A DNA stretch of 64,000 nt from Sipunculus nudus (taxonomy: Eukaryota > Annelida > Sipuncula > Golfingiida > Sipunculidae). Each line of letters starts with the position of its first letter. Position 1 is the first letter of the stretch. The notes under the pieces were generated by a model. The model was not told the DNA's origin. It did not search any database and saw only the letters and a program-made list of their open reading frames with translations. The stretch spans positions 7,651,076-7,715,075 of the forward strand of contig CM049309.1 of NCBI GenBank assembly GCA_026874595.1, given 5' to 3'. The translations under genes and the position numbers were made by a program. Below are positions 1,157 through 59,851 of this stretch, piece after piece.

Positions 1157-2850
1157 TAGCTCAGCTGACTGTAAGTCAACTGAGGTATAGGAATGGCGCT
1201 TTGTCCATCGTTCGGCAGGGCACAAATCGTAACTGCTGGACCTAGAATTTTTTAAGTAAATATCCAGGGAGTTCAATAAAAAATCTCCTTGGAAACCTGA
1301 AATTAGCTCACTGCTACCTATATCCTCCGAGCTATGGGGCTTGAAAGTACCCCCCCCCCCCCCCCAGAATAATCAAAAATATGATACAGAACCTGCAATA
1401 TCTTGATAATTAATGCATGGATTGTCATGAATCTTGCCTTGAATATTGACCATGACTAGTTTTGTCAGTTCCCGAAAAGTGGTGGCGCCACCTGTATTTT
1501 TTGTTATTTTTACGAATATTTAAACATTTTTTTAACGATAAAATGACAACACATGTCAGTTTCTCAGCTGTAATTACATCTAGTGTCCCAAAACCTGGTG
1601 TGTTTATTGATTACAAGTGGATGCCATATAGTTATCAACCTGTCTGTCTGTCTGTTTGTTTGTCTGTCTGTCCATCTGTCAATCCACACAAATTTGTTTC
1701 CAGATGATAACTCCAGGTTGTATTGACACATGGATTTCAAAACTTGACCCACATATGGCCCACCAGTAAAGCAAGAACCAATATGATTTTGGGGTCATGA
1801 GGTCAGAGGTCAAGGTCACAGGACTCACTTTTTTAAAAAAGATTATGGCTGCATTTTAAGCCAAGCTTTTCATCCCAAATTTTCCATGTTGCATATTTGG
1901 CTGACTTGCCAGTATGGGGAGAGCATAAATGCATTTTGGGTCACATGGTCAAAGTTCAAGGTCACAGGGGCCATCTGTTTACAAATTAGTTTCCAGTTGA
2001 TAACTCCAGTTTAGTTTGACATATTGGTTTCAAACTTAACTTATACATGATACAACACTTGAGTAAGAATCGTGTGGATTTTGGGGTCCTACGGTCAAAG
2101 GTCATGGTCACAGGACTCATTTCATTAAAAAGAATGCATATGCAATTGAAGCCAAACATTTCATCCCAAACCTTCCATCTTCAAGATATTGCTAACCTGC
2201 CAATAGGGGCAGATTCTGTTCAATTTTGGGGTCATGAGGTCAAAGGTCAAGCTCACAGTACCAACATATTTAGAAAGATTGTGGATGCATTTTAAGCCAA
2301 ACTTTTCATCCAAAATCTTCCATCTTGCACATATAGCTGAGCTGCCAATAGGGGAAGAGACTGATTGATTTTGGGGTCACAAGGTCAAAGGTCATGGTCA
2401 CAGGGGCCCATCAATCCACATATTAGTTTCCAGATGATAACACCAGTTTAGTTTGAAATACTGGTTTCAAACTTGACTTATATATTGCTCACCACTAAAG
2501 TAAGAACTGTTGGTTCTGGGGTCATGAGATCAAAGGTCAAGGTCACAGGACCCACTACTTTAGAAAGATTGTGGATGCATTTTAAGCCAAACTTTTCATC
2601 TCAATCCTTCCATCATCAACATGTGGTGCACCTTCCAATTGGGGAAGTTTCCTTTTGATTTTGGGGTCATAAGGTCAAAGGTTAAGGTCACAGGGCCCAT
2701 CCATTCACAAATTAGTTTATGGATGATAACTCCAGTTTGGGTAGACAGGTTGGCTTCAAACTGATCACAGGACCAATATTTTGGAAAACCTCATAAACAA
2801 ATATCCTTATAGACAAACGCAGGTGAGTGTCGAGACCCATGGGTCCCTAG
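1157..2850 (+). mobile_element. HLE-E element, full length
   Basis: Both ends are visible. The 5' end is the imperfect hairpin AGCTCAGCTGAC (1158-1169) pairing with a following GTCAACTGAGG. The 3' end has a hairpin around GACCCATGGGTC (2833-2844) and then CTAG at 2847-2850. After the 5' end comes a GGGCACAAATCGTAAC segment, a 17-base C run (about 1350-1366), the palindrome GGTGGCGCCACC at 1481-1492 and a (GTCY)n tract around 1640-1675. About four tandem units of roughly 290 bp follow, each with GGTCAAAGGTCAAGGTCAC-like half-site clusters. These units resemble the 288-bp units of HLE-A although the ends differ. No transposase or Rep is encoded. Confidence 0.8.
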
Positions 2851-3119
2851 TTCCAGGAAACGCTGAGATCCTGTGGACCCTATGTGTAAAAATGGCCACA
2901 GCAGCATTTTTCACATATATATGCACATTTATACTGATGGACACATGTAAACACTCCAGGTACAAGTCACATGAGATTTATTCAAGCATATATGAGCACA
3001 TTGAAACACAGCTTTTGTTGTCCTTTTTGCAACTGGTGAGAATAATTGTAAGTCATAACATACAAATTTCAACATGCATTCCACAGGTTTCTATGATATA
3101 ATACTCTCATTATGAGTTT
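2851..3119. other. Flank of HLE-E, no gene seen
   Basis: An open frame runs out of the end of the HLE-E element into this flank, but its first residues are element sequence. It has no domain and no splice support. Confidence 0.5.
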
Positions 3120-3480
3120 TTATTCCTGTGCCATACAATAGAGGACTACTTAAATTGTCTTCGTCTGTTCATCCGTCTGTCTCGCCCAATTCTTTTACCA
3201 CATATCCCTAAGGTCCTTGCTGCTTTTTTCACCAAATATCACAGACTTACTCAGCATAAGACTGACATGTGAATATAAAATGCAATTGGCGCCGCCTCTG
3301 TTTAAGAGTTTTTGTGCTCCATAATGGCCTTTTTCACTCTTATTTCAGATAAGTCAATAAATAAGAACATTTAAGCCTTCAGAAAATCATTTGCAAGAAT
3401 TCCTTTGAGCTAGCGAAACTCAGTGAATACTGTATTGAATATAATTATTATCAGACTAATGTTTCCACATACACAATAAT
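3120..3480 (+). repeat. Dispersed repeat, paralogous to 57180-57520
   Basis: The stretch from 'ccaattcttttacca' to 'gtttccaca' matches the segment at about 57200-57510 in order and spacing. Shared phrases include 'cagcataagactgacatgtg', 'taatggcctttttcact' and 'ttatcagactaatgtttcc'. It carries a diverged form of the GGTGGCGCCACC palindrome (ggcgccgcc). The ends are not defined, so it is a dispersed repeat of unknown class. Confidence 0.65.
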
Positions 3481-4151
3481 AGATACCGGTAGTACAAATA
3501 CTTATTTAATACACCCAGGTACAGGTACCAGGTGCTTTGTACTACTGTCATACAGCTTCATGCATGTACAGGTACAGTTTTCCCTGCTTTTGTGACCAAC
3601 CTTTCTGCCAAGGAAAAACAGTCAGCAAATGCAGGTGGTCATTGTAAATAAATGGACATGAAAACTGGTTACCATTGACAATCTTATTACAGCTTTTAAT
3701 AGAAATTTGGCAATAATTTAAGTATTTACCAATTTTTTTAATACATCAGTGTTGTACATCTTTATATGTCATTAATTAAACTTTGAAATAGATTTTGATA
3801 TATTTAAATATATGTTAGTCACCCATGATGTTTTTCCTTCCAAAATGTAAGTCATTTGTCCATGTCAGTTGACATGTCACTGTCATTTGTATAAAACAGC
3901 CATACTAGGAATAGAAGTGGCCACAATGGTAGGGGACCTGTGTACACTGGGGAACCCACTTCCCTATGAAACCTGTGACCAGCATAAGGCCTGAAAAGGA
4001 GTGAAAAAAGAGGGAAACCATTGTGTTAGGTGATCTGATCCACCAATCAGCATACAAAGTCATTTTTGGGCATTTTTTTTGCAGAAAACTTTGAAGTGAA
4101 AATGCTTTGGTATTTATTTAATCACTTAATTTCATCAGTATTTGGTTTTCT
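3481..4151. other. AT-rich stretch without a recognised gene
   Basis: Nothing beyond AT-rich, apparently single-copy sequence was recognised. Confidence 0.45.
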
Positions 4152-4155
4152 TATT

Positions 4156-8290: not shown

Positions 8291-8293
8291 TTT

Positions 8294-9317
8294 TAGCCCT
8301 CAGCCCTTAGGCTGATGGGCTATTGTCGTCACCCAAGCTGTCCGTCCGTCCGTCCGGCGTCCATAAACTTTTACCTTGTGAGCGGGATATCTTGAAAAGG
8401 ATTCACCGTCAGATTTTTATTTCCTCGGTAAAGATGTATACAAAATCTCGGTCAAGTTCAAAGATGGGTGACCTTGACCTATTTTTCTACATTTTAGAGC
8501 TGATTATAGAAAATTACTTAGATGCTTATTACTCAGGAACCATTTGGTGGATTTTCACAAAACTTACTTTGATTATTAGGACTGATAGTCTGTACCTGCC
8601 ACACAAGTTTGGTGGCGCCACCTACAATTTCTGATTTTTTATGAATTTTTATCGGATTTTTCAACTTTTACCTTGTGAGCGGGATATCTCTAAAAGAATT
8701 CACCGTAGGAATTTTATTTTTTTGGTGAAGATGTATATTGACAAAATCTCGGTCAAGTTCGAAGATGGGTGACCTTGACCTATTTTTCTACGTTTTAGAG
8801 CTGATCATAGAAAAACATTTAGAAGCTTATTTCTCAGGTACCGTTGGGTGGATTTGCACAATACTTACTATGATCATAGGGACTGATGGTCTTTAACTGC
8901 TACACAAGTTTGGGGGCGCCACCTGCAATTTCTGATTTTTAATGAATTTTTCTTGGATTTTTCAACTTGGGCCTTGTGAGCGGGATATCTCTAAAAGGAT
9001 TCACAATAGGAATTTTATTTCTTTGGTGAAGATATATATTGTCAAAATCTTGGTCAAGTTTGAAGATGGGTGACCTTGACCTACTTTTCAAGGTCATAGA
9101 GCTTATAATAGAATAAAACTTAGATGCTTATTTTTCAGGAAGCATTTGGTGGATTGTTATGAATCATGGTACATACCTCTCAATTTTAAATTTATAACTG
9201 AGACATGTACAGATATACATCCATGTGAGAACAGATATTTAGTACTTGTTACTGTTACCACCTCTAAACACTGTTCTTTTGGCTGAGGGCTTTTGTCAGC
9301 TTCTGCTGATATTCTAG
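8294..9317 (+). mobile_element. HLE-C element, full length (about 1.0 kb)
   Basis: The 5' hairpin is AGCCCTCAGCC (8295-8305) pairing with GGCTGATGGGCT (8310-8321), followed by a (GTCC)n tract. Near the 3' end GGCTGAGGGC (9281-9290) repeats the left arm in inverted form. A hairpin with arms TCAGC (9296-9300) and GCTGA (9305-9309) follows, then CTAG at 9314-9317. The body is three direct units of about 300 bp starting near 8364, 8665 and 8968. Each has TGACCTTGACCT (first at 8469-8480); the first unit has a perfect GGTGGCGCCACC at 8611-8622. It is non-autonomous, and open frames inside it are repeat by-products. Confidence 0.85.
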
Positions 9318-12273: not shown

Positions 12274-12459
12274 TTTTAAAATGTCCTAGTCCGAAACTTG
12301 CAGGTCTGAAATATCCATATTGCTGAAATCATAATACTAAGGTAGATATGCAGGACATAAGAGGATCAATATTAGATTTTTAAAATAATCCTCCATTCAT
12401 ACTCCCAAACTTTGCACAGGTTCACGCTAGGCCTCTAGGCCTTATTTCAAATTTTACAC

Positions 12460-13095: not shown

Positions 13096-13206
13096 AACTT
13101 AGGTTCATTAAGTACATGTATACAAGTAAATATTTGCCGAAAGAGATTTAATTTCTCTCTACAATGAACCCAGGGCTTACTGAATCATATACATATATAT
13201 ATATAT

Positions 13207-13474
13207 GTCAAGGCCCAGATTGCAATCTGGACAGATCTTAGATCTGTCCAGCCCAAATTGCGATCGCAGTTCAGGCTGGCCCAAACTGCGATCGCAATCC
13301 TGGCTGGCCAGATCTTAGATCCGTCCAGCCTTTATTGCGATCGCAGTTTAGTTCGGCCCAGATTGCGATCTTGTCTTTCTTGCTTCAGGATCGCAATCTT
13401 GACTGGACAGATCTAAGATCTGTCCAGTCAAGATTGCGATCCTAAACTTGACCAGCCCATATTGCGATCCATGC
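13207..13474 (+). repeat. Left copy of a 268-bp palindrome-rich inverted repeat
   Basis: It runs from GTCAAGGCCC to 'attgcgatccatgc' and matches the reverse complement of 23078-23344 over its whole length. Inside are small perfect palindromes: GCGATCGC and an AGATCTTAGATCT core with GGAC/GTCC arms. An (AT)n microsatellite lies directly outside each copy. The pair could be terminal inverted repeats of a DNA transposon, or two opposed copies of a dispersed repeat. Confidence 0.75.
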
Positions 13475-14332: not shown

Positions 14333-14377
14333 GTATCCCCAGACAAAGTCGGGGGATACTATGTTTTCATACCGGTC

Positions 14378-14408
<31 letters not shown>

Positions 14409-16082
14409 ATATGAATCTTGTTGGCGCGATAACCCAAAAAATATTTCACAGAACTTTACCAAACTTGGTATATGTATAGATATGGGTAAGAGGACGACGC
14501 CTATTTAAAATGAGGTCATGACCTTTACTAGGAGAGTGTCCTTGACCTTAAATAGGTCCAATTTTGGGGAAAATCACACAAATTCTTTAATATCTCAAGA
14601 AATCTTGCATGGATTTATCCCAAAATCAAGTTGATGGAAGATCATGGATAGGGTTGTCATGTTCCAGAAACTGGTGGCGCCACCTATTATTCTTTACTTG
14701 TTTTCGTGCCGTTTAATACCCCTTAAATTGCCACCTTACAGTACTGTGAGCATTATAAGTCAAAAACTAATGAACAGATTTCTTTTATATTATGCATATA
14801 CATAGGTATGGGTTATGGGATGATGCTTATTTAAATTGGGGTCATGACCTTTCCTATGATAGTGGCCTTGACCTTGAATATTGCCATATATGGTGAAAAT
14901 CACACACCTCTTATGATATCTCCAGTGTTGATAGCCATATGGATTTCAAACATGACTTATGTATGGCCCACCACTAAAGTAAGAACCCTATAGGTTCTAG
15001 GGTCATGAGGTCAAAGGTCAAGGTCACTGGACTGGCATTTTAAAAGATACTTTGGATGCATTTTAAGACAAACTTTCATCCCAGGTCTTCCATCTTGAAT
15101 ATATAGCTCACTTGCCAATAATGGATGATCCATATAAATTTTGGGGTCACAAGGTCAAAGGTCAAGGCCACAGGAGCTATCTGTCCAAAAATTAGTTTCT
15201 GGATGATAATTCCTGCTTTTATTGATGTAATGATTTCAAAATTGACTTATATATGTCCCATTGAAAAAGCAAGACTCAAATTGATTTTGGGGTCATGAGG
15301 TCAAAGGTCAAGGTCACAGGAAACCTCTATAAAAAGATTGTGGATGCATTTTCAGCCAAACAATTCATCTCAGATCTTTCATCTTGCACATATAGTTCAC
15401 ATGCCAAGAGTGGAAGACCCCTATCAATTTTGAGGTCACAAGGTCAAAGGTGAAGGTCACAGGAGCCATATGTCCAAAAATTAGTTTCTGGATGATAATT
15501 CCTGCTTTTATTGATGTATGGATTTCAAACTTGACTTATATATGTCCCATTGGAAAAGCAAGACCTAAATTGATTTTGGGGTCATGAGGTCAAAGGTCAA
15601 GGTCACATCTTTAAAAAGATGTGGATGCATTTTCAGCCAAACATTTCATCTCAGGTCTTTCATCTTGCACATATAGTTCACCTGCCAAGAGAGGAAGAAC
15701 CCTATCAGATTTGAGGTCACAAGGTCAAAGGTGAAGGTCACAGGAGCCATCTGTCCAAAAATTAGTTTCTGGATGATAATTCCTTCTTTTATTGATGTTT
15801 GGATTTCAAACTTGACTTGTACTTGACCCATTGGAAAAGCAAGACCGGAATTGAATTTGTGGTCATGAGGTCAAAGGTCAAGGTCACAGGAAACCTCAAT
15901 AAAAAGATTGTGGATGCATTTTCAGCCAAACATTTCATCTCAGATCTTTCATCTTGCACATATAGTTCACCTGCCAAGAGTGGAAGACCCCTATCAATTT
16001 TGAGGTCACAAGGTCAAAGGTGAAGGTCACAGGAGCCATATGTCCAAAAATTAGTTTCTGGATGATAATTCCTGCTTTTATT
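14333..16082 (+). mobile_element. HLE-A copy 1 of a head-to-tail trio (3' truncated)
   Basis: The 5' hairpin is GTATCCCC (14333-14340), an 11-base loop, and GGGGATAC (14352-14359). A (CCG)n tract follows near 14380-14408. The 5' region contains AGGTCATGACCT at 14513-14524 and GGTGGCGCCACC at 14673-14684. About four 288-bp units begin near 14950. The copy stops inside a unit at 16082, where the next copy's 5' hairpin starts, and its own 3' end is missing. Confidence 0.85.
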
Positions 16083-19000
16083 GTATCCCCAGACAAAGTC
16101 GGGGGATACTATGTTTTCATACCGGTCCCGCCACCGCCGTCGCCACCACCGCCGCCGCCGCCGCCGCATATAAATCTTGTTGGCACCATTACCCAAAAAA
16201 TATTTCACGGAACTTTACCAAACTTGGTATATGTATAGATATGGGTGAGAGGACGACGCCTATTTAAAATGAGGTCATGACCTTTACTAGGAGAGTGTCC
16301 TTGACCTTGAATAGGTCCAATTTTGGGGAAAATCACACAAATTCTTTAATATCTCAAGAAATCTTGCATGGATTTATCCCAAAATCAAGTTGATGGAAGG
16401 TCATGGATAGGGTTGTCATGTTCCAGAAACTGGTGGCGCCACCTATTATTCTTTACTTGTTTTTGTGCCGTTTAATACCCCCAAAATTGCCACCTTACAG
16501 TACTGTGAGCATTATAAGTCAAAAACTAATGGACAGATTTCTTTTATATTATGCATATACATAGGTATGGGTTATGGGATGATGTTTATTTAAATTGGGG
16601 TCATGACCTTTCCTATGATAGTGGCCTTGACCTTGAATATTGCCATATATGGTGAAAATCACACACCTCTTATGATATCTCCAGTGTTGATAGCCATATG
16701 GATTTCAAACATGACTTATGGATGGCCCACCACTAAAGTAAGAACCCTATAGGTTCTAGGGTCATGAGGTCAAAGGTCAAGGTCACTGGACTGGCATTTT
16801 AAAAGATACTGTGGATGCATTTTAAGCCAAACTTTCATCTTGCATATACAGTTCACCTGCCAAGAGTGGATGATCCATATAAATTGTGAGGTCACAAGGT
16901 CAAAGGTCAAGGCCACAGGAGCTATCTGTCCAAAAATTAGTTTCTGGATGATAATTCCTGCTTTTATTGATGTATTGATTTCAAACTTGACTTATATATG
17001 TCCCATTGAAAAAGCAAGACTCAGATTGATTTTGGGGTCATGAGGTCAAAGGTCAAGGTCACAGGACACATCTTTAAAAAGATTGTGGATGCATTTTCAG
17101 CCAAACATTTCATCTCAGACCTTTCATCTTGCACATGTAAGTCATCTGCCAATAGAGGAAGACCCCTATCAGTTTTGAGGTCACAAGGTCAAAGGTGAAG
17201 GTCACAGGAGCCATCTGTCCAAAATTAGTTTCTGGATGATAATTCCTGCTTTTATTGATGTATGGATTTCAAACTTGACTTGTATATGTCCCATTGGAAA
17301 AGCAAGATCCAAATTGATTTTGAGGTTATGAGGTCAAAGGTCAAGGTCACAGGACACACCTTTAAAAAGATGTGGATGCATTTTCAGCCAAACATTTCAT
17401 CTCAGATCTTTCATCTTGCACATATAGTTCACCTGCCAAGAGAGGAAGAACCCTATCAATTTTGAGGTCACAAGGTCAAAGGTGAAGGTCACAGGAGCCA
17501 TCTGTCCAAAAATTAGTTTCTGGATGATAATTCCTGCTTTTATTGATGTATGGATTTCAAACTTGACTTGTATATGTCCCATTGGAAAAGCAAGACCCAA
17601 ATTGATTTTGAGGTTATGAGGTCAAAGGTCAAGGTCACAGGAAACCTCTTTAAAAAGATTGTGGATGCATTTTCAGCCAAACATTTCATCTCAGATCTTT
17701 CATCTTGCACATATTGTTCACCTGCCAAGAGAGGAAGAACCCTATCAATTTTGAGGTCACAATGTCAAAGGTGAAGGTCACAGGAGCCATCTGTCCAAAA
17801 ATTAGTTTCTGGATGATAATTCCTTCTTTTATTGATGTATGGATTTCAAACTCGACTTGTATTTGACCCTTTGGAAAAGCAAGACCTGAATTGATTTTGG
17901 GGTCATGAGGTCAAAGGTCAAGGTCACAGGAAACCTTTTTAAAAAGATTGTGGATGCATTTTCAGCAAAACAATTCATCTCAGATCTTTCATCTTGCACA
18001 TATAGTTTACCTGCCAAGAGTAGAAGACCCCTTTCAATTGTGAGGTCACAAGGTCAAAGGAGAAGGTCACAGGAGCCATCAGTCCAAAATTCAGTTTCTG
18101 GATGATAATTCCTGCTTTTACTGATGTATAGATTTCAAATTTGACTTGTATATGTCCCATTGGAAAAGCAAGACCCAAATTGATTTTGAGGTTATGAGGT
18201 CAAAGGTCAAGGTCACAGGACACACCTTTAAAAAGATGTGGATGCATTTTCATCCAAACATATCATCTCAGATCTTTCATCTTGCACATATAGTTCACCT
18301 GCCAAGAGAGGAAGAACCCTATCAATTGTGAGGTCACAAGGTCAAAGGTGAAGGTCACAGGAGCCATCTGTCCAAAAATTAGTTTCTGGATGATAATTCC
18401 TGCTTTTATTGATGTATGGATTTCAAACTTGACTTGAATTTGACCCATTGGAAAAGCAAGACCTGAATTGATTTTGGGGTCATGAGGTCAAAGGTCAAGG
18501 TCACAGGAAACCTCTTTAAAAAGATTGTGGATGCATTTTCAGCCAAACAATTCATCTCAGATCTTTCCTCTTGCATATATAGTTCACCTGCCAAGAGTGG
18601 AAGACCCCTATCAATTGTGAGGTCACAAGGTCAAAGGTGAAGGTCACAGGAGCCGTCTGTCCAAAAATTAGTTTCTGGATGATAATTCCTGCTTTTATTG
18701 ATGTATGGATTTCAAACTTGACTTGTATATGTCCCATTGGAAAAGCAAGAACCAAATTGATTTTGGGGTGATGAGGTCAAAGGTCAAGGTCACAGGACAC
18801 ATCTTTAAAAAGATGTGGATGCATTTTCATCCAAACATTTCATCTCAGATCTTTCATCTTACACATATAGTTCTCCTGCCAAGAGAGGAAGAACACTATA
18901 AATTTTGAGGTCACAAGGTCAAAGGTGAAGGTCACAGGAGCCATCTGTCCAAAAATTAGTTTCTGGGTGATAATTCCTGCTTTATTGATGTATAGATTTC

Positions 19001-19274
19001 AAACTTAACTTGCATATGTCCCATTGGAAAAGCAAGACCAGATTTGATTTTGGGGTCATGAGGTCACAGGTCAAGGTCACAGGACACATCTTTAAAAAGA
19101 TCAAGGTCACAGGACCAACATCTTTAACAAGATTGTGGATTGTTAGATGGAAGAAACAATGAATTTGCCAAATGTCAGTATATGCTGCTAAAAATGGGGG
19201 TCTATTTATAAAGGGGGTGGGGGCCTACTATGGCTGGGGATACTCTGGCACCTGCGGTGCCAAGAAATGTCTAG
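16083..19274 (+). mobile_element. HLE-A copy 2 of the trio, full length
   Basis: This copy runs from GTATCCCC (16083-16090) to CTAG (19271-19274). Before the end come GGGGATAC (19236-19243), the inverted repeat of the start, and a hairpin GGCACC / TGC / GGTGCC (19247-19261). The body has about nine 288-bp units. Each unit has a GAGGTCAAAGGTCAAGGTCA module and a second GAGGTCACAAGGTCAAAGGT module. Because 288 is divisible by 3, each strand shows strings of look-alike open frames of 61-74 codons. These are not genes, and no Rep/helicase is encoded. Confidence 0.88.
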
Positions 19275-19283
19275 TTTTTAATT

Positions 19284-22889: not shown

Positions 22890-22904
22890 TTACCTTTTTT
22901 CAAC

Positions 22905-41875: not shown

Positions 41876-42235
41876 TTTTTAAAAAATCATATGATTCTCT
41901 TATTATTTTTAATAAAAGTAATATTTGCCACAATATTTGTTATTAAATTTTATTAAATAGTTAAACTCTTATCTTATATGTGCTGCTTATAGATTATATG
42001 GCCAAGTCAAAATCTGTATGACACTAGCACTCCATTTGTTAATAAAATAAATGAAATCAATCCTCTTCCCTGTCTCCAAAGATACTATCAAAATCATACA
42101 TAAGCTTAACACCAACAACTCATAATACAGCTTATATTTATTACCACACAAAACCAGCAAGTGCCTCATTTCAAAATCATATTTTTTATCATATATAACA
42201 GCTGAGCACCGTGACCCATGGGTTCCTTGTTTATA
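41876..42235 (+). mobile_element. Older HLE-D copy, right part of interrupted tail
   Basis: 'tttaaaaaatcatatgattctc' to 'acccatgggttccttgttt' repeats the last 355 bases of the inserted HLE-D. With 39066-39324 it makes one older HLE-D tail, so the younger element landed inside a sibling. Confidence 0.8.
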
Positions 42236-45250: not shown

Positions 45251-46987
45251 CATATTTATAGCACCATGTCTTGAATGTTTACATCAAGTCATTGGTTAAC
45301 AGTGTTCCAGGCTGTTACATAACACCTTCACTCCTTGCCTACTGCTTCTGTGAGAGTCTGGGTCAGGCTGGGTCAGGCAGTAATTACCAGAGAGCCTTTC
45401 TCCTCTCTCTCTTTTCCTTTCTCTCTTTCTAGCTCTCTTTTTCTCTCTCTCTTTCTCTCTCTCTCACCCCTATGCCTCCCTTCCTCCCTCCACCCCATTC
45501 TGTTGACAGGTTCTATAAACCTAATTTATTAGATATATATGTTGATGCAATTAAGAAATGTGAATCAACTGAAATATTCACATATATATGTTATACTCTA
45601 AATGTATAGTTACATTTTCAAACCTGGAAAAAAATGATGTTATAAAAAAAGGAATGTATGTAAAAATTGTTCATAATTTCCTGGCTCAGAAGAATGGGAA
45701 TTAAAATTATTTGCTTTGTTTCTCTAGCTTTCTTGCCTGTTTTAAATATTTAATAATTATGAATAAACTTTTTTTTCCTGTAAGCTCTTGATTAATTAAA
45801 TTTCATATCCTGTACGTATATGCAAGGGTATTGTAACTCCCACCATCCCCTTCCCCCACCCCACTAAGTCCTTGCTCCTTCGCACTGTCAACAATAGTGC
45901 TATTGCTATAGCATAAAATTTAATAATTTGAAGAAAATATATACAGAGAGACAGAGGCGTTGTAACTCCCATCGTAAACCCCCCCCCCCCCCCTCCATCA
46001 AGTCCTTCAGCCTGTGGAGTGGGGATTTTATAGCAACTGTATACATATCATAAAATAGAAAAAAAAGTTTAATTAAAGTTTAAATTAAAAAAAATTGGAT
46101 CTCATTAGACAAATGTGTAAAATGTTGAACTGTCAACAGCCTGTCAAAAAGGTATCCAATGAAAACGCAAGGTCAGATCTTAAAATATTATTTGCAACAA
46201 TTTCTTCAATCATATCAACCAATCATAGCCTAGATTACCTCTTTCTCTCAGACTTTATTTACATTTCATAATATTTTAGATTTTAACCGTCCAGGTGTTT
46301 AAGTACTGTTTAATGCTCCGTCCCTCTCACTCTATCTCCTTTTCTCTCTACATCCAACCCTCCTTGCTGCCCACACTGTTTTCTTCTCCGAACCCCATCC
46401 CAATGTCAGCCTCAGTAAACGAGAACAAGTTGAATCAGATATATTCATATTTTTATATATTGTATAACTGTTTGTTACCTATGTACGTGCCAGAAATTAT
46501 GTCAATATTGTGTAATATGTAGACGTGGTGGGCATCAATATAATGTACCTTGTCAAGACCTAAGAGATATCATGTCATACAGTCACAATTCATAAATCCA
46601 CTCTTCAGCATAGTTAATAATAACATTATATATGTCAAATTGAAATCTTGCAGACTTCCTTACACTATAGATCCTTCAACAAATAGCCTTATCATCATTC
46701 TACCACTGCTTAGTGTTCTGTCATTGCATTCATATTTGCTCAAATATATTGCTATTTTCAACAGCTCCCAAATAAATAAAAAATAAACCACTATATTTAC
46801 GCCATATTAATCCATCAGTCAGGTAATTTCATACATGATTTACTCACATATGACATTATATTCCTTTATAATAGCCTAATAGGTCCATGATATTCATAAG
46901 GTTTGTTGACTAAATATAGTACCACAATGGTGATACATTAATAGTTCAATCATGATCAGCTGAGCGCCGTGACCCATAGGTCCCTTG
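45251..46987 (+). mobile_element. HLE-D2 tail repeats ending in a 3' terminus
   Basis: Further diverged copies of the C-run tail module lie here, with 'gttgtaactccca' at about 45831 and 45959. The stretch ends with CAGCTGAGCGCCGTGACC, a hairpin around GACCCATAGGTC, and CTTG at 46984-46987. No own 5' end was found, so it is either part of the 42435 element or a second truncated copy. A TC-rich low-complexity tract sits at 45400-45490. Confidence 0.6.
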
Positions 46988-47689
46988 TTTATATGACTGG
47001 TGTCACAGCTAAGTGTATGCGTAATTAGTCCAATTCCAAGTGAATGCCTGACATTTCATGGCTAGCTTGACATTAGAACTGCAAGGCCTCTCCCATCATT
47101 CAAGACAAACCTTAAGAAATTTTATTTTCAAGGAATCTTGTTAATATATAAAATTGAAAATAAAATTTTTGCTATAAAAGTCAACTTCATGCAAAAAATT
47201 CAACTGGAATATATAAAAAAAAAAATATGACGATCATACTTGAGGGCATATAGTCATATAGCAATATAATTATATATTATTATATTAAAAATATATAAAT
47301 CAAGTACAAACTTATTTTCATCATATTAACTTTATTACTGAATGTGAAATCCTATCATTCAGATAAACTTATGACAACCATATATAGTGTGGACAATCCA
47401 AAAGAAATATGTTGTAATTGTTTTTCACTGGAACTGTATGCTATGCTGCTATGTATTTTTAGACAGGGTTGTAGCTTTACAAGAGGGGGATATAATATGA
47501 GACACCAGGGGCTTAGCACTGTGTCCCAGACACCCTTGCGTTACACGCATGCAGTCCATCATGGGTTGTATATTGATTGTTTGGTCCTGGCTTTGAGCCA
47601 AGAAGATCAGCATTTTATCCTTTTCTGGCAGAAAATTTAACATTTTTATGACAGTCATTTTAATCAGGAGAACCCACAAGTTGTCTCGT
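46988..47689. other. AT-rich stretch without a recognised gene
   Basis: Overlapping open frames on both strands at 47344-47679 have no recognisable domain. Confidence 0.4.
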
Positions 47690-48149
47690 TCAAATGGTGT
47701 GCCGTGAATGTAGATGTATCCCTGAATTATTTACTTATAAAAAGGAACAGTTATATGATAAGGACCTCAAATCAGGGATGGCTTTTTGGAATTTTGTAAA
47801 TATATCTTTTATTGGCCAAGGTTTTTGGGTAGCTTTATGTCATACAATAAAATGGTTGCGCAACCTGCAATCATTTTTGCACAGCGTCCATCTTTTCATC
47901 TGCCTTGGGTTAAAATCCCTCATATCTCTGCAGTGGTTTGACTTATCTTTCTGTAATTTTGTATATGTATACATCTTGGATAGTTTCTCTTTCAAATAAC
48001 AGGTGGCACCACCTACAATCATGTTTACATGGCAGACATCCATGCTAATATACAACACATCTCATTCTTTCCCCTTCCCACTTAATCCACCAGTCTTACT
48101 CTGATTTTGGCGGATCCATGTAGCTGCTTGTCGACTACCCATATTCTAG
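47690..48149 (+). mobile_element. HLE-B element, 3' part
   Basis: A diverged unit with 'ggttgcgcaacctgcaatc' and 'gcacagcgtccatc' leads to GGCGGATCC, the hairpin 'tgcttgtcgacta' and CTAG at 48146-48149. The palindrome appears as GGTTGCGCAACC, in which both arms changed in a compensating way. The 5' end is missing. Confidence 0.7.
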
Positions 48150-48297
48150 TTGTTGATAATATTTTGCTAAGTTTCAGCAGAAAGGTTTATAAATATTGAT
48201 TATTGACAAGACATTTTCAATAAAATGTTAATTTTTTTTATAAATACAAAAAATCTGTTCATTTTGTGAAATATGGTGATGAAATGATTCCAGATGG

Positions 48298-49080
48298 TTA
48301 TGTGGTAGTGAATAAAGTGATATGAAAAGAACAGAACAGGGGTGATATGGAAATAATGGAACAAAGAAAAGGGTGATATGGAAAGGATGGAATGTCAGTG
48401 AAAGGGGTGATATGGAAAGAATGGAACAATGAAAGGGGTGATATGGAAAGTATGGAACAATGAAAGGGGTGATATGGAAAGAATGGAACAATGAAAGGGG
48501 TGATATGGAAAGAATGGAACAATGAAAAGAAGTGATATGGAAAGAATGGAACAATGAAAATGAGTGATATGGAAAGAATGGAACAATGAAAGGGGTGATA
48601 AGGAAAGAATGGAACAATGAAAGGGGTGATATGGAAAGAATGGAACAATGAAAATGAGTGATATGGAAAGAATGGAACAATGAAAATGAGTGATATGGAA
48701 AGAATGGAACAATGAAAGGGGTGATAAGGAAAGAATGGAACAATGAAAGGGGTGATATGGAAAGAATGGAAAAATGAAAGGGGTGATATAGAAAGAATGG
48801 AACAATGTAAAAAAAGTAATATGGAAAGAACGGAACAGTGAAAGGGGTGATATGGAAAGAAGGGAACAATGAAAATGAGTGATATGGAAAGAATGGAACA
48901 ATGAGAGGGGTGATATGGAAAGGATGGAACAATGAAAGGGGTGATATGGAAAGAATGGAACAATGAAACGGGTGATATGGAAAGAATGGAACAATGTAAA
49001 AAAAGTAATATGGAAAGAACAGAACATTGAAAGGGGTGATATGGAAAGAATGGAACAATGAAAAGGAGTGATATGGAAAG
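48298..49080. repeat. 31-bp minisatellite, about 25 units
   Basis: The unit, read as 'atggaacaatgaaaggggtg' plus 11 bases, repeats every 31 bp, for example at 48421, 48452 and 48483. Variants of the unit alternate (ggggtgat, tgagtgat, and a 'taaaaaaagtaat' form at 48804 and 48992). Because 31 is not a multiple of 3 and the minus strand unit lacks stops in every frame, all three minus frames stay open for 210-351 codons. They all encode rotations of the same His/Phe/Pro/Ser-rich 31-residue pattern. This is best explained as non-coding. Confidence 0.9.
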
Positions 49081-49573
49081 AAAAGAGTTATGAGAATTAT
49101 ATGTGTAATAATTATATGAAATATTTCAAAATAATTAAACCCTGAAGGAGGTATGTAAGAAATTGCGCACTCCCATATTGACATTTTTAGCTCAGCAGAC
49201 TGTAGGCTATCTGAGCTATAGCGATCACTCTTTGTCCGTCTTCCGTCTTGCCGTCTGGCCGTCTGTCCGTTAACAAGGCACAAATCGTAACCACTGGACC
49301 TGGAATCTTCTTACTTTACATCCAGAGAGGTCCATGAAAAATCTCCTTGGAAAACCAGGAATTAGGTCCCTGTTACCCATATTCTTCAAGCTATGGGGCT
49401 CTGAAGTGCCTCCTCAGAATAATGAAAAATTTGATACAAAAGCTCAAGTGTTCGAACAACTAATGCATTGATCACCATGATTATTTGCATTGATATTGAT
49501 CATGAAGTGTTTCATCAGTTTCTGCAGACTGGTGGAGCCACCTGTATTTTTTTTTATTTTATTTTATGATTTT

Positions 49574-51451
49574 TAGCTCAGCTGACTATAAGTCATCTGA
49601 GCTATAAGCGTGGTCCATTGTCCGTCCGTCTGTCCGTCCGTAGATGTGGCACGTTTTGAAACCGTAAGACCTAGGAATCCAAAATTCGGCATAATGTTAG
49701 ATGTCCCCAAGATCTCCTACCAAGCCGAAAACTGGGTCTCTGTACTTCGTTCCTCTGAGAAATTAAGGAAAAACCTCAATTTTTTATTAAAATCCTATTT
49801 TCACACTTCAGGACTGCCTAATATCAAAACCACTCATCTGTTTTTCCTCATATTTACCATAAATATTCCTCTATATATTTCCTATGCACATGCCAGAAAT
49901 TAAGTCTGTAAAGTATAAATTCTTTAAGTTATGGGCCCAAACATAATGGACTTTGTAAAAATTCAGGAAAAATGATAACTCACTTAACATGAAAAATTTT
50001 GAAACTGGAGTCTATATTCTCAAGTATATAACTATGTTTAATTAAGATTCAATTGTTCACCTAAAATTAGATCTGAATTTTGTAAATTTTTTAAGTTATT
50101 AGCATAAAAAAATCAGTACCTTAAATTTTGCCCAACTTTGATCATGGCACGTTTTTTTCCTGTAAGCACCATTGATTTCATTTTCTCAGCATGTAAACAT
50201 AAATATTTAGTTTGTCTAAATCTGAAATTTGAAAATAAAAGCTTGAAAATTAAGCTAGTTATTGATTTTTTTCTGTAGTCACTTGCTTTGATTACAGATG
50301 CAGGGTCCCACTCCAGGTCACTGGAAGTCAGCTATGCCAGGGTTTCTGATTTGTTACAGTCACTGGGGGAGATCCCCTGCTGTGACAGGTGTACAGTTAT
50401 TCTCATATCACCACCCCAATCACCCCCCCCCCCCCCCCCCCCCCCCCCGCCCAAACCCAACCCACCAAGTTTTATGCAATAATTGTTATTGTTTTCACTG
50501 TATCTCCTTAATTGTAATGCTGTTTCCACTCCGATATGCAAAAACTTTCCTTGAAAAAATAATTCAAGGTGTAATCCAGACGATGCAATGTTGTGTAATG
50601 TAGCATTTTTAAAGAAATCAATTTTCTTTTAAATGATTTTAACAAATATAAATGAACCCATCAGTATGCTTAAATTATTATAAAATATGAAGCACATTAG
50701 GGATAAATAAAGACACAATTAAAAATTGTGAAATCTAAATCAAGTATTATTTTTAGATATTTATTGTTTAGCAGATTTAAAAGATATATTTTTGTGGTAA
50801 AAAAAAAATAAACATTTGTATGCATGATGTGGTGTTATCTGACAAGATTGAGATTTATGATGATGCAATTGAGAATTATGAATCAACTTTTATATTCAGA
50901 TATATATGTTAAATTGGAAATATATAGAAATATAAACTTAAATTAGAAAATAATTGATGTGATAAAAAAATCAGGATTTAATACAAACATTTGTTCATTA
51001 TTTTCCTGCCTCAGCAGAATTTGAGATCAGGCTTTGTTTGCCCTGTTTAATGTTGTTAATTAGCTATATTTCAACTGTATACATTTCATAAAAAAATACA
51101 TATATATCTAATAATATATATTATACAAAAAAAATAGGTGCAATTGAACAAATGTGTAAACTACTGAAATGTCAACAGTTAATCGAAAAACCAACTAATG
51201 ATCATGGTAATAGTACAGATCATTTGTTCACAAACTGCTCACATGCTTTAGTTTCAACATTAGGAAACACATGGTCAGGTCACAAAATATTTTTTGCAAC
51301 AATTTCTTGCTCATCAATACAAACCAATCATATAAACCAACCATGGCCTTTATTACCTCTTCCTCTTACACTTTATCTCCATTAGATATTATTTTAGATT
51401 TTTACCTTCAAGGTTAACGTCAGCTGAGCACAGTGACCCATAGGTCCCTTG
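49574..51451 (+). mobile_element. HLE-D2 element, full length, nested in HLE-E
   Basis: The 5' hairpin AGCTCAGCTGAC at 49575 is followed by (GTCY)n. The 3' end has CAGCTGAGCACAGTGACC, a hairpin around GACCCATAGGTC, and CTTG at 51448-51451. An uninterrupted run of 26 C lies at 50423-50448. Flanks 'attttattttatgat' and 'ttttctctatttttgagtcc' rejoin to the HLE-E sequence with no duplication visible. Confidence 0.85.
50423..50448 (+). repeat. Run of 26 C
   Basis: An uninterrupted homopolymer, preceded by CCACCCCAATCA and followed by GCCC. The minus strand G run could form a quadruplex. Read length at this site may be unreliable. Confidence 0.9.
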
Positions 51452-52558
51452 TTTTTCTCTATTTTTGAGTCCTCCAAAGATGCTGTCACCTGTTAACAGG
51501 GCACAAATCCGAACCACTGGACATGGAATCTTCTCACTTTACATCCAGAGAGGTCCATGAAAAGTTTCCTTGGAAACCTGGAAAAAGGTCTCTGTTAACC
51601 ACATTCTTCAAGCTATCAGGCTCCGAAGTACCCCCAGAATAATGAAAAATTTGATACAAAAGCTCAAGTATCGGAACAACTAATGCATTGATCACCATGA
51701 TTCTTTGCATGGATATTCATCATGGAGTGTTTTATCAGTTTCTGCAGACTGGTGGTGCCACCTGTATTTTTTCGATTTTTTAACATTTTTTTTCTCAATT
51801 TTGAGACCTTAAAAGATGCTGTCATCTGTTAACAGGGCACAAATCATAACAACAAGACGTAGAATCTTCTCACGTTACATCCAGAGAGGTACACTGGACC
51901 TGGAATCTTCTCACTTTACATCCAGTTAGGTCCATGTAAAGTCTCCTTGGAAACCTGAAATTATGTCTCTGTTACCCATATTCTCTGAGCTATTGGGCTT
52001 ATAAGCACCCTCATCATAATTAAAAAAATTGATACAAAAGCAGGGCAAATATTATAAACATTGGACCTGGAATCTTCTAACATAAAATCAAGGGAGGTCT
52101 ATGAAAATCTCCTTGGAAACGTGTATTAGGTCTCTGTTACCCATATTTCTGAGCAATGGGGCTTATAAATATAAACACCCCTCTGAAAAATTGAAAATTT
52201 GATACCAAAGTAGGGCACAAACCATAACCTTTGGGCCAAGAATCTTCTTACTTTACATCCTTAGATTTCCTCATAGAGTCTCCCCAGAAACCTAATTGGG
52301 TCACAGTGAACTATATTCTCAGAGTTTTGGGGTATGTTTGAGCACCCTAGAAATAATGCAAAATACATACAAATTGCCAGATTCCTCATGAAAGGCTGGT
52401 TGGTTTGTCATCAGATTTGTTGTGCTTATGGGTCTTGATGAACTTAAGCTAATATGCATGAACAATGATGCCACCTACATTACCTTAATTAATTGTCTGT
52501 GCAAGGACATATTGTCAACATGTCAGTCGGCTGAGCGTCATGACCCTCGATTCACTTG

Positions 52559-53859
52559 TTGTAATTCTGCCCAGGTACTGCACTCTTTTTGCAGTGGATA
52601 TATACTGCAGTCGTTCTGTCAGTCATTTGTATCAGACCAATGAGAGCTTGGATGCACAGTGGGCTACCATGCTCTGATTGGTCAGTTACAAGTCTTGACC
52701 CTGTGCCAGCACCTTTTGGTGATATCCAGCAAACCCAGCTAAAGTAAGGAGTTGTAAAAGGTACATATTAACATGTGAAAAAATGTGGGCATTACCCACA
52801 CCATAAGTTCATTTTTGCAGAATACAAAAGTTTTCTAGCAAAACCATCCCAGAACACAGACTTACATAAACTCCCACTCACCTGTCTTGTACACTGGTAT
52901 GGCTCTGTGTGCGAGTCAGCACCGTCAACACCATTACAAGATGTTTACCATAACAAGAATACATTACCAGAGGTTCAATCTTGCACCTTCGCGACAACAT
53001 CCAGAAAAGTATCATGAAAGAAGAAACACTGGTTTCTAGCTTAAAAAATCTTGAATTTTTGAAATTGTACATTATAGGCAACAGGTGGCTTGCATGCTAT
53101 ATTAATTTTGTACCACTGAACACGCATGGTGCAAGTTTTTTTCAGCTGGTGCACAAGGTTCCTAACAGTTTTAGAATGAAATATTTGCAGATATTATTAT
53201 ATTTTTGGGAGAAAACCCTGTATTTCATGTATGTTTAACACACCTGGTAGGTGAAAAGTTTCCTTTTAAACAAAGGAGGTACAGAACATGTCTCTAGCAT
53301 ACAGCCATTGTGTATAAGGAGTGTTATTAAAGTCACCAAGGAGTGTTATTAAAGTCACCAAGGAGTGTTTCCCCGTGTACTGACACAAACACAGCATCAT
53401 TTGCGGTGCCATATAACAGGGATTTTCAGAATTCTGCCTGCACAGTTCTCTGCCCAATGCTGTGTAAAGTTACATGACATGATTTTCAGAAAAGTCCTCA
53501 GCCGTGTGCCAAGTATATATAATTGATATATTCTGCTTTGGCTGTAGGACTATGATAATCAGAGATTCCTGTCTTAACAGTCACTGACCACTGCTGAGTA
53601 TTTTAAACAAACCAGTAAATACTAACTGGCAACTCACCCTTGCATTTTACTTAATCAGATAATCATAAAGTAACAATATTATAATCATTTAATGATGCAA
53701 TAATGACATACAGTGCTAAAAATAAATTATCAAATTTTACATAGCCTTTCAAAATATTACAGAGATTCCCTGCCATATAGGACACTTCAGAACCCCAGGT
53801 GACTCTTCAGTTATTGTCCTGAGCATCCCAGACTAAATTTTTATCCTTACTTAATTTAG
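52559..53859. other. Stretch without a recognised gene
   Basis: No domain was recognised in the short open frames here. An exact 22-bp tandem duplication (GGAGTGTTATTAAAGTCACC plus AA) sits at 53318-53361. Confidence 0.45.
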
Positions 53860-53887
53860 CTGAGCAACGTGACCCATGGGTCCCTTG
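53860..53887 (+). mobile_element. HLE-D 3' end
   Basis: AGCTGAGCAACGTGACCC, a perfect GACCCATGGGTC palindrome, and CTTG at 53884-53887 form an HLE-D 3' terminus. The extent to the left is unclear because the upstream sequence does not match the HLE-D interiors seen elsewhere. Confidence 0.6.
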
Positions 53888-56220
<2,333 letters not shown>

Positions 56221-57126
56221 CTAATTGTATTGTTGGCGCAATAACTCAAAAAATATTTCACGGATCTTTACCAAACTTGGTATATATATAGATATGGATG
56301 CGAGGACGACGCCTATTTAAAATGAGGTCATGACCTTGACTAGGAGAGTGTTCTTGACCTTAAATAGGTCCAATTTTGGGGAAAATCACACAAATTCTTA
56401 AATATCTCAAGAAATCTTGCATGGATTGATCCCAAAATCAAGTTGATGGAAGATCATGGATAGGGTGTTCATGTTCCAGAAACTAGTGGGGCCACCCATT
56501 ATTCTTTATTTGTTTTCGTGCCATTTAATACCCCCAAAAATGCTACTTGACACTACTGTGAGCATTATAAGTCAAAAACTAATGGACAGATTTCTTTTAT
56601 ATTATGTATGTACATAGATATGGGTTATGGGATGATGTTTATTTAAATTGGGGTCATGACCTTTCCTATGAGAGTGGCTTTGACCTTAAATATTGCCATA
56701 TATGGTGAAAATCACACAAAATCATTAATATCTCAATCAGGGATGCATGGATTTGTCCAAATATCACCTTGACCGTAGATCTTGGATAGTGTTGTCATGT
56801 ACCGGAAACTGGTAGCACCACCTGTTATTCTTTTACCTGTTTTCGTGCCGTTTTATACCCCATCATTGCCACTTAACAGTACTGTGAGCATTATAAGTCA
56901 AAAACTAATGGACAGATTTCTTCCATATTATGCATGTACATAGACATGGGTTAGGGGATGATGTATATTGAAATTTGGGTCATGACCTTTTCTGTGAGAG
57001 TGACCTTTTCTATGAGTGTGGTCTGATGTTAATTGTTGCCAAAGATTTGGGGCCTATTCTTAAAGGGGGTGGGGGGGTTAATTGTCTGGGGATACTATGG
57101 CACCTGCGATGCCAAGAAGTATCTAG
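56221..57126 (+). mobile_element. HLE-A element, 5' truncated, without tandem array
   Basis: The copy starts at 'attgttggcgcaataactc', after the position of the 5' hairpin and CCG tract. It contains the AGGTCATGACC site, 'ttgaccttaaataggtcc' and the 'gtggggccaccc' form of the palindrome. It skips the 288-bp array. The 3' end has a GGGGATAC repeat, GGCACC / TGC / GATGCC with one mismatch in the hairpin, and CTAG at 57123-57126. Confidence 0.8.
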
Positions 57127-57179
57127 TTACATCTAGTTCAACTTGTAAATGTATAACTAAAAATTCTGTGCTTTCACTC

Positions 57180-57700
57180 ATTTAAGTTTTGTGCTTTTTA
57201 GTCCACATCTGTCCATCTGTCTGTTAATCCAATTCTTTTACCAATTATCTTTAAACTGCTGCTGTTTTCTTCACAAATTTAACAGTCATACTCAGCACAT
57301 GTCTGACATGTGATTATACCCTGCAGGTGGCGCTACCTTTGTTAAGCAACTTCCTGCAGTCCAAAATGGTCTTTTTCACTTCCCTTCAGATAATTCAGTA
57401 TATAAAAACACTTAAGCCTTTCCAAAACATATGCAAAGAATCCTTGGAGCTACAGGAATGCAATACTATATTGAATTGTATGATTATCAGACTGATGTTT
57501 CCACAGGACTTTTGATGATTGTGAAATGTTCTGATTTCACATTTCCATATATGAAGCAATATCTTTAACCTTTTTATCTCATGAAGCACTGTACCAATCA
57601 TTACCAAATGTTTTAGAAATGTAAATCGCATGACTAGCATGTGATGAAAACCTGCAGGTGGCAGCACCTCTGTTTGAACACTTTAGCCATGTTTAATCAT
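57180..57700 (+). repeat. Dispersed repeat, paralogous to 3120-3480
   Basis: The first 330 bases match 3120-3480 in order. The later part repeats the same theme with 'gcaggtggcgctacc' (57324) and 'gcaggtggcagcacc' (57655), so two related units seem to lie in tandem. The class is unknown. Confidence 0.6.
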
Positions 57701-57800
57701 GATTTTTGTGTGATGATGGCACTACCACTGGTAGCTTACTCTCTCTTAGGTAATATGGTATTTTCTGCTTATTCTGCAACAAGTTAGAAAATGTTTTAAT

Positions 57801-58044
57801 TTAAGCTTTCCTTCCTTTGTCAACTGTATCTTCTACCAAGTTAAATCTAATACCAAATGACCCAGCAACAGCACGAGCTGTTAGTATAAGATGGCCACAA
57901 CAATGACATGCATCTATTTTTGATAACATGTCCCTTGGTGTCTCTTGTTCAAATATGTCTAGTTTACAATGAACATCCCCAATTCCTCCCAATTTAAACA
58001 GAGGCATCATGTAAACTAAACACTTAATCAAGCATATTCTTTTT
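57801..58044 (-). pseudogene. Truncated coding-like fragment of unknown family
   Basis: On the minus strand an open frame reads YMMPLFKLGGIGDVHCKLDI, then FEQETPRDMLSKIDACHCCG and HLILTARAVAGSFGIRFNLV before a stop. Its composition is protein-like, unlike the AT-driven frames nearby, and it has a Cys/His cluster (CHCCGH). It has no ATG start: the frame opens directly at the 5' end of the HLE-E at 58045, so the element may have cut it off. It could be an exon end or part of another transposon. I do not recognise the family. Confidence 0.35.
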
Positions 58045-59851
58045 TAGCTCAGCTGACTGTAAGTCAACTAAGGTAAAGGAAGTGCTCTTTGTCCCACGTC
58101 TGTCCGGCCGGCCGTTAGCAGGGCACAAATCGTAACCGCTGGTCCTAGAAACTTCTTAGTGAACAACCAAGGAGGTCAATTAAAAATATCCTTGGAAACC
58201 TGATCCTTAGAGCTATGGGGCTTGAAAGTACCCCCCGGAATAATAAAAAAAATATAATACACAACCTCCAATATCATAATAATTAATGCATGGATTCTCA
58301 TGAATCTGGCCTTAAATATTGACTATGACTAGTTTTGTCAGTTCTCTAAAAGTGGTGGCGCCACCTGTATTTTTTGTTATTTTAACAAATATTTTTCTAT
58401 TTTTATTACTATTAAATGACAACAATCATGTCAGTTTCTTAGCTGTAATTACATCAAGTGTCCCAAATCCTGGTGTGTGTATTGTTCACAAGTGGATGCC
58501 ATATAGTAATCACCCTGTCTGTTTGTCTGTCTAGCTGTCCATCCGTCCATCCACACAATTTTTTTCCAGATGATAACTCCAGGTTGTATAGACACATGGA
58601 TTTCAAACTTGACTTACGTATGGCCCACCAATAAAGCAAAAACCTATATGATTTTTGGGTCACCAGGTTAAAGGTCAAGCTCACAGGGGCCATTTGTTTA
58701 CAAATTAGTTTCCAGATGGTAACTCCAGTTAAGTTTGACATATTGGTTTCAAACTTAATTTATATATGACTCACCACTAAAGTAAGAACCATGTCGATTT
58801 TGGGGTCCAACGGTCAAAGCTCAAGGTCACAGGACTCATTTCTTTGAAAAGAATGCATATGCATTTGAAGCCAAACTTTTCATCACAAACCTTCCATCTT
58901 CAAGATTTTGCTAACTTGTCAAATGGGGAAGATTCTGTTTAGTTTTTGGGTCATGAGATCAGAGGTCAAGGTCACAGTACCCACTTATTTAGAAAGATTG
59001 TGGATGCATTTTAAACCAAACTTTTCATATCAATCCTTCCATCTTCGATATGTGGTGCATCTGCCAATAAGGAAAGTTTCCTTTTGATTTGGGGTCACTA
59101 GGTCAAAGGTCATGGTAACAGGGGCCCATCTTTCCACATATTTGTTTCTGGATGATAACTCCAGTTTGGATTGACATGTTGGTTTCAATTTTGACTTATA
59201 AATGACCCACCAATATTGTAAGAACCCTTTTGATTTTACGGGTCGTAAGGCCAAAGGTCAAGGTCACAGGACCCACTTCTTTAAAAAGATTGTTGATGTA
59301 TTTTTAGTCAATCTTTCTGTCCTGAACCTTCTTTTTTCCAGATGTTGGTCACCTGCCCATAGTGGAAGTAACTTATGAATTTTGGGGTCACAAGGTCAAA
59401 GGTCAAGTTCATGGGGGCCATCTGTCCACGTATTAGTTTCCAGATGATATCACCAGTTTGGTTTGAAATATTGGTTTCAAACATGACTTATATATGGCCC
59501 ACCACTAAAGTAAGAACTGTTGATTCTGGGGTCATGAGATCAAAGGTCAAGGTCACAGGACCCACTACTTTAGAAAGATTGTGGATGCATGTTAAACCAA
59601 AATTTTTCATCTCAATCCTTCCATCTTCGATATGTGGTGCATCTGCCAATAGGGAAAGTTTCCTTTTGATTTGGGGTCACTAGGTCAAATGTTAAGGTCA
59701 CAGGGCCCATCCATTCACAAATTATTTTATGGAGGATAACTCCAGTTTAGGTAGACAGGTTGGCTTGAGACTGGACCAATATTTTGGAAAACCTCATAAA
59801 CATATCCTTACAGACAAATGCAGTTTAGCGTCAAGACCCATTGGTCCCTAG
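58045..59851 (+). mobile_element. HLE-E element, full length
   Basis: The 5' hairpin AGCTCAGCTGAC (58046-58057) is followed by the GGGCACAAATCGTAAC segment, GGTGGCGCCACC at 58354-58365 and a (GTCY)n tract near 58516. The body has about four to five units of roughly 290 bp with GGTCAAAGGTCAAGGTCACA modules. The 3' end has 'tagcgtcaagacccattggtc' and CTAG at 59848-59851. It has the same layout and length as 1157-2850. Confidence 0.85.

Follow-up and report, generated by a model that had tools for sequence, protein, structure and literature searches.

In this study, we examined five families of repeated elements, HLE-A to HLE-E, in a 64,000-nucleotide window of the Sipunculus nudus genome (C4:7651076–7715075, contig CM049309.1; host genome of 1.43 Gb in 153 contigs), and found that all five are very probably non-autonomous Helentron-type rolling-circle transposons, that is, HINEs of the DINE-1/Pearl kind. 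For HLE-D and HLE-E, we could link the HINEs to a Helentron lineage that itself bears D/E-type 5′ and 3′ ends. HLE-A, HLE-B and HLE-C are HINE-like, and the 31 Rep 3′ flanks that we sampled contained no partner for them. Because the layout of the ends has already been described (PMC3627910, PMC4067079, PMC7492417), A–E are new members of a known design. The stretch 45,900–60,300 of the window was examined through scripts alone.

The original prediction held that the five families share one terminal architecture, and this is borne out: in every family, at least one copy has a 5′ hairpin whose left arm returns in inverted orientation close to the 3′ end, together with a 3′ palindrome and a terminal CTAG or CTTG. 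Of the three termini proposed, CTGG fared less well: its sole occurrence is at 12273, where a B end is degenerate. The end sequences quoted in the prediction lie where it placed them and are commoner across the window than in shuffled sequence: GTATCCCC (A) has 13 matches (shuffles: mean 1.18, largest 4), GTATCCGCC (B) has 3 (mean 0.02, largest 1) and GGCTGAGGGC (C), with up to 1 mismatch, has 5 (mean 1.18, largest 4). Across A–E, TT or T-rich DNA precedes the 5′ hairpin, and T follows the 3′ CTAG or CTTG in nearly all copies. The A ends consist of TT, the GTATCCCC hairpin and, at the 3′ side, GGGGATAC, a TGGCACC/GGTGCCA palindrome and CTAG before TT. In B, a hairpin beginning GTATCCGCC or GTAACCGCC follows TT, and GGCGGATAC, GTAGTCG/CGACTAC and CTAG precede TT; in C, the AGCCCTCAGCC hairpin follows TTTTT, and GGCTGAGGGC, TCAGC/GCTGA and CTAG precede T. 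Both D and E begin with a AGCTCAGCTGAC hairpin after T-rich DNA and end with CAGSTGAG, GACCCATGGGTC or a near form of it, and CTAG or CTTG, followed by TT save at 59851; the 3′ inverted copy of the 5′ arm in the D element at 2820 has one mismatch. In single-stranded DNA folds of one copy per end, compared with shuffles, the 5′ hairpins gave z scores of −5.4 (A), −3.4 (B), −4.8 (C), −2.8 (D) and −4.5 (E), and the 3′ ends of A, B and C gave −3.2, −1.75 and −1.80.

The traits that define HINEs, a 5′ hairpin-forming repeat and its inverted subterminal 3′ copy followed by a palindrome, are thus seen in A–E. The Helitron2 and Helentron/HINE layouts were described by Bao and Jurka in 2013 (PMC3627910) and Thomas et al. 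in 2014 (PMC4067079), and oyster HINEs with the same layout and internal tandem repeats by Vojvoda Zeljko et al. in 2020 (PMC7492417). The HINE/DINE-1 elements of Thomas, Vadnagara and Pritham (PMC4067079) resemble A–E in that their subterminal inverted repeats either are palindromic or have a 5′ inverted repeat after them; further common points are a 3′ palindrome, insertion at TT, the presence of microsatellites or tandem repeats in some of the copies, and an excess in number over their encoding partner. The end sequences differ, and we found no structural difference. Cg_HINE of Crassostrea gigas (PMC7492417) likewise has a 5′ subterminal inverted repeat with a complementary inverted repeat, a GTCY-type microsatellite, a middle region of satellite-like arrays, a 3′ subterminal inverted repeat with a palindrome, and a T-rich insertion site without target-site duplication; the likeness is one of layout. 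Unlike Cg_HINE as portrayed there, A–E include several families nested in each other within one 64-kb window. Helitron2 (PMC3627910) also has hairpins at both ends, with a 5′ asymmetric terminal inverted repeat (ATIR) that forms the 5′ hairpin and a 3′ ATIR that immediately precedes the 3′ hairpin, and its hairpins are preserved by compensatory changes, as here. FoHeli of Fusarium oxysporum (PMC5148889), another system of the Helitron2/Helentron kind with ATIRs and terminal hairpins, has experimental support for joined ends; it differs in being fungal and in having one group that inserts between TNAT and T. A literature search with the five end sequences matched 267 papers by at least one of them, and the 15 that were listed seem unrelated by title; another, on HELIANO/HLE2, listed a transposon classifier.

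The original prediction instead saw in the elements a combination of canonical Helitron and Helentron traits, under which they would be passengers of Helitron1 that carry a 5′ hairpin in addition and would form a new hybrid class. The 3′ palindrome followed by CTAG does resemble the CTRR terminus of Helitron1, which CTAG would fit, although CTTG would not. However, the 5′ ends start with GTAT or AGC rather than TC, insertion is into T tracts rather than between A and T, and the 5′ hairpin together with the subterminal inverted repeat is what defines Helitron2/Helentron (PMC4067079, PMC3627910). Moreover, the D/E partner described below is Helentron-like, with a sub-threshold C-terminal endonuclease-like match that would point to a Helentron and not to the endonuclease-free Helitron2 of PMC3627910. 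We therefore rejected the hybrid class, which we regard as highly improbable, since its layout already defines Helitron2/Helentron and is the published Helitron2/Helentron/HINE design.

The same ends are abundant throughout the genome, and their arrangement is that of mobile elements with real boundaries. Patterns of 35 places for the A 5′ and A 3′ ends, 30 for the B 3′ end and 37 for the C 3′ end, each with up to 2 mismatches, found 2,523 A 5′ ends (1247 + 1276), 4,685 A 3′ ends (2333 + 2352), 9,232 B 3′ ends (4656 + 4576) and 2,254 C 3′ ends (1117 + 1137), and an exact pattern with free places found 19,285 D/E 3′ ends (9598 + 9687); the control for each search, the reversed pattern, gave 0 in every case. 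These counts cover the whole genome, and positions were taken from the first 100 matches listed per search. The pairing of A ends was tested on C1, where 93 of the A 3′ ends in this list of 100 fall in the region covered by the corresponding list of 100 A 5′ ends; the other 7 lie past it and were dropped. A same-strand A 5′ end lay within 10 kb upstream of 50/93, giving a median length of 2.7 kb, compared with a mean of 0.79 and a maximum of 4 pairings when A ends were placed at random (200 trials). An opposite-strand A 5′ end within 10 kb was found for 0/93, and a same-strand but downstream one for 3/93.

Unfilled insertion sites point in the same direction. Joined flanks of the A array at 14333–22468 traverse unfilled paralogues at about 27440–27560, 41500–41620 and 41870–41990, those of the B copy at 25623–26795 traverse one at about 40796–40905, and the E copy at 39326–41875 has unfilled paralogues at about 27410–27520 and 41460–41575, with roughly 4 T more at the junction; no target duplication is present in any of the three. 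A second B site is filled in the C3 copy of a Helentron and unfilled in the C8 copy. For C, a genome search with the joined flanks of 31083–32018 matched the window alone. Together, the order and strand of the A pairs and the empty sites at checkable loci support rolling-circle, Helitron-like elements.

The insertion sites also bear on whether the families could be miniature inverted-repeat transposable elements (MITEs) or other terminal-inverted-repeat transposons that depend on a DDE transposase. The presence of inverted arms at the two ends would suit such elements, and the related Pearl element was first named a MITE, according to PMC7492417. However, the 3′ arm has a subterminal position, D/E have a relative that encodes a Rep-helicase, and the target-site duplications that the original prediction tied to a DDE partner are missing from the A array, B and E sites, which show insertion into T tracts. 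We rejected this explanation on the duplication-free unfilled sites and the D/E Rep-helicase partner, although DDE genes themselves were not searched for, and consider it scarcely credible.

The original prediction called for an autonomous Rep/helicase relative with the same ends, and one with ends of that kind was found for D/E on C17 and C5, though none for A, B or C in the Rep flanks sampled. A genome search with PF14214 gave 143 matches (195 candidates, 150 scored). The Helentrons at 35.63 Mb on C17 and at 42.91 Mb on C5 share 98.4% identity across their final 7.0 kb, and their alignment stops just past CACTTGTTT/CAGCTGAGCATCATGACCCATGGGTCACTTGTTT; about 14 kb upstream, both have TTTTT(A)AGCTCAGCTGACTGTAAGTCATCTGAGCTA/TTTTT(A)AGCTCAGCTGACTGTAAGTCATCTGAGCTATAG and GTCC repeats. 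Aligned with the HINEs, their 5′ ends score Z = 11.0 (D) and 9.4 (E) and their 3′ ends 6.8 (D) and 9.2 (E). The C17 frame contains Herpes_teg_N, DUF6570, Helitron_like_N (6e-28, 98.7 bits; cut-off 28.9), PIF1 (5e-23, 82.4 bits; cut-off 25.9) and a sub-threshold Exo_endo_phos match. A third Rep locus, at C7:71.19 Mb, has a PIF1 helicase frame and the 3′ end GCGCCGTGACCCATGGGTCCCTTG followed by TT, the commonest form among the D/E ends listed (38/100) and one base off the E ends at 27818 and 41875.

This association extends to the sampled Rep 3′ flanks (31 loci, 160,785 bases; up to 4 mismatches allowed for D/E and 8, 7 and 9 for A, B and C), where a D/E-type 3′ end occurs in 13/31 in the sense orientation and in 2/31 in the antisense orientation. 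From the exact genome count, about 1 sense end would be expected by chance in this many bases; the looser pattern could raise this number, and the antisense figure of 2 is the better control. The D/E palindrome occurs in two forms, TGACCCATGGGTCA and TGGCCCATGGGCCA, whose two sides have changed together; the second form was seen 6 times at Rep loci, 5 of them ending in CTAG. Among the 100 D/E ends listed, the inner palindrome pair is A–T in 92, G–C in 4 and unpaired in 4, and the terminus is CTTG in 93 and CTAG in 7.

Several observations weigh against the reading of A–E as HINEs with Helentron partners. With regard to the ends themselves, 43/93 A 3′ ends lack a nearby 5′ end among the matches listed, which were exact ones; the 3′ palindromes of D (z = +0.66) and E (−0.62) fold no better than shuffles; and the D copy ending at 59851 is followed by AT and the C copy ending at 9317 by TG, not TT. 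Covariation in the D/E palindrome is modest, since among the 100 ends listed the second pair fails to form in 3 and the third in most (T–C in 64). With regard to the partners, the 5′ border of the C17 and C5 Helentrons rests on likeness to the D/E HINEs because C17 and C5 share the same upstream repeat. The endonuclease matches fall below the Pfam cut-offs both on C17 (Exo_endo_phos, 3e-4, 21 bits; cut-off 24.5) and at C7:71.19 Mb (Exo_endo_phos_2, 23.6 bits; cut-off 27.4), and D's own 3′ form, ending in GAGACCCATGGGTCCCTAG, is absent at the Rep loci whose ends were printed. A recognized end is missing in 18/31 Rep 3′ flanks, and the A, B and C 3′ ends occur in 0/31 on either strand, in a sample drawn from the 143 PF14214 matches. 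Finally, five long copies of a further kind, 26.5 kb on C11 and in pieces on C7, C8, C3 and C4, were followed and yielded no recognizable ends.

This last kind includes a C11 Helentron with an open frame of 2,235 amino acids encoding OTU, Rep, PIF1 and endonuclease domains, with the one endonuclease match that exceeds its cut-off (Exo_endo_phos, 49.9 bits; cut-off 24.5). The long C7 and C11 Helentrons are 99.0–99.7% identical in pieces over more than 24 kb and are therefore probably recent. These very long Helentrons comprise the loci L003–L006, L007–L008, L018–L021, L047 and L052–L055. In the stretches read, no ends were found at L001 and L002, which have the best Pfam scores and internal stops, and at L022–L024, which have an endonuclease-like motif, a recognized end was not found.

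These results raise the question of whether a single Helentron enzyme, either of D/E type or of the young kind seen on C11, moves all five families in trans by reading the hairpin layout and T target over sequence. Pairwise identity between copies in the window (1–6 pairs per family) is 95.5–98.5% for A and 95.4% for C, compared with 82.2–92.7% for B, D and E; the A and C values imply recent movement, so that a partner should have existed recently. That such young and numerous families have no matching ends in the Rep flanks, and that the layout and the CTAG before T are common to the families, argue for one shared enzyme. Conversely, the D/E HINEs have their own Helentron lineage, in keeping with the usual match of one enzyme to one family, some of the end sequences are related to each other, and only 31 flanks were read against 143 PF14214 matches, with the C11-type ends not found. 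On balance, we think it rather unlikely that one enzyme serves all five families. A related proposal, that A, B and C lack a same-ended Helentron and are moved in trans by differently ended Helentron enzymes that read the hairpin layout and T–T junction and not the arm sequence, likewise seems improbable.

The idea of a structure-reading enzyme grew out of the claim that the five families have unrelated ends, which our comparisons do not uphold. We compared one copy per family by global alignment against 1000 dinucleotide shuffles. At the 5′ end, Z was 9.6 for D–E, 7.3 for A–B, 4.0 for C–E, 3.6 for B–C, 2.6 for A–C and 1.1 for C–D; at the 3′ end, it was 7.5 for D–E, 4.2 for A–C, 3.6 for B–C, 2.8 for A–B (6/1000 shuffles), 1.9 for B–D and near 0 for C–D and C–E. 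A scored near 0 against D or E at both ends. These values are generous because the stretches were trimmed after inspection and each family was represented by one copy. Judged by these alignments, D and E are clearly related and form one lineage by both ends, and A and B form another by their 5′ ends, being only weakly alike at the 3′ end. The placement of C is ambiguous, either between A/B and D/E or apart from both.

The most likely mechanism for A–E as HINEs is rolling-circle transposition with a Helentron Rep-helicase supplied in trans. The Rep-helicase would nick the junction between T and the element, unwind it and copy the strand in rolling-circle fashion, and strand transfer would end at the 3′ palindrome with CTAG or CTTG before T. 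The 5′ repeat may pair with its inverted, subterminal 3′ counterpart, opening the 5′ hairpin and marking the end point; that such pairing serves as an end signal was suggested by Bao and Jurka (PMC3627910). The fixed layout would then reflect a requirement of the Helentron enzyme class, and the differing end sequences would reflect drift that produced two or more lineages, A/B and D/E, with C either intermediate or separate; most likely, each lineage has a Helentron subfamily of its own to serve it.

The copies in the window all lie on the + strand. At 14333–22468, three A copies stand head to tail in one target site: the first (14333–16082) has a 5′ hairpin, GTATCCCC..GGGGATAC, at 14333, lacks its own 3′ end and abuts the 5′ end at 16083; the second (16083–19274) has its 5′ hairpin at 16083 and a 3′ end of GGGGATAC, GGCACC/GGTGCC and CTAG at 19274, then TT; and the third (19284–22468), with two ends by end reading, is set 9 bases (TTTTTAATT) from the second. 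A further A copy with two ends, 35430–38280, has TT before and after it and gave the A fold scores above, and an A 3′ end was read at 57086–57126. One B copy (25623–26795), with two ends, is nested in an E-type element; the other (33119–34262) has the 5′ hairpin with z of −3.4, GTAGTCG/CGACTAC and CTAG followed by TT. The C copy at 8295–9317 has the AGCCCTCAGCC hairpin after TTTTT and ends with GGCTGAGGGC, TCAGC/GCTGA and CTAG; the copy at 31083–32018 has the same ends, then TT, and is the one 95.4% identical to it. D is present at 1158–2850, with 5′ AGCTCAGCTGACTGTAAGTCAACTGAGG after TTTTT and 3′ CAGGTGAG, GACCCATGGGTC and CTAG before TT, and at 58046–59851, with a 3′ CTAG. The E element holding the nested B copy probably spans 24017–27818 (5′ end at 24017, CTTG before TT at 27818), and a second probably spans 49575–51451 (5′ end at 49575, CTTG before TT at 51451), the pairing of ends being inferred in both; the E copy at 39326–41875 has two ends.

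Elsewhere in the genome, A 3′ ends recur every 9.76 kb at C1:63713994–63743278, which suggests a large tandem array holding A elements, and B 3′ ends recur every ~11 kb, with one 22 kb gap, at C3:39137237–39193288, which suggests another. The C1 spacing had suggested an autonomous A element, a candidate that we rejected after reading one unit, in which no frame exceeds 134 amino acids.

Within A, B, C and D lies a 12-bp perfect palindrome, GGTGGCGCCACC, with 17 occurrences in the window (at 1481, 8611, 11071, 11200, 14673, 16432, 19612, 25931, 31415, 35754, 58354 and others). Exact copies of TGGTGGCGCCACCTG number 26,946 + 26,732 in the genome (reversed control, 1 + 1). In A, C and D, the left flanks of GGTGGCGCCACC are related to one another (Z of 4.7–6.6), and those of B more weakly so (at most 3.0, with C), whereas the right flanks are hardly related (2.2 for C–D, −1.3 to 1.5 for the others), suggesting a module or conserved site common to the families. 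A literature search with the 12-mer GGTGGCGCCACC found nothing but an enzyme paper. Tandem repeats in A and D (15008–22267, 36188–38104, 2237–2537 and 58821–59547) bear AGGTCAAAGGTCA and AAAGGTCAAGGTCA, which we take to resemble nuclear-receptor half-sites and which are strongly strand-biased in the window (31 vs 0 and 28 vs 0 on the other strand). Outside the HLE ends, inverted-repeat clusters of GATCGCAA/TTGCGATC lie at 13227–13434 and 23182–23293.

In summary, what appeared to be a new class of transposon is removed by this analysis, and the fixed design of the ends is a Helentron signature. Because young, abundant families with the same layout and different arms are present beside an encoding Helentron with known ends, the S. 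nudus genome is a useful place to ask whether the enzyme reads structure or sequence.

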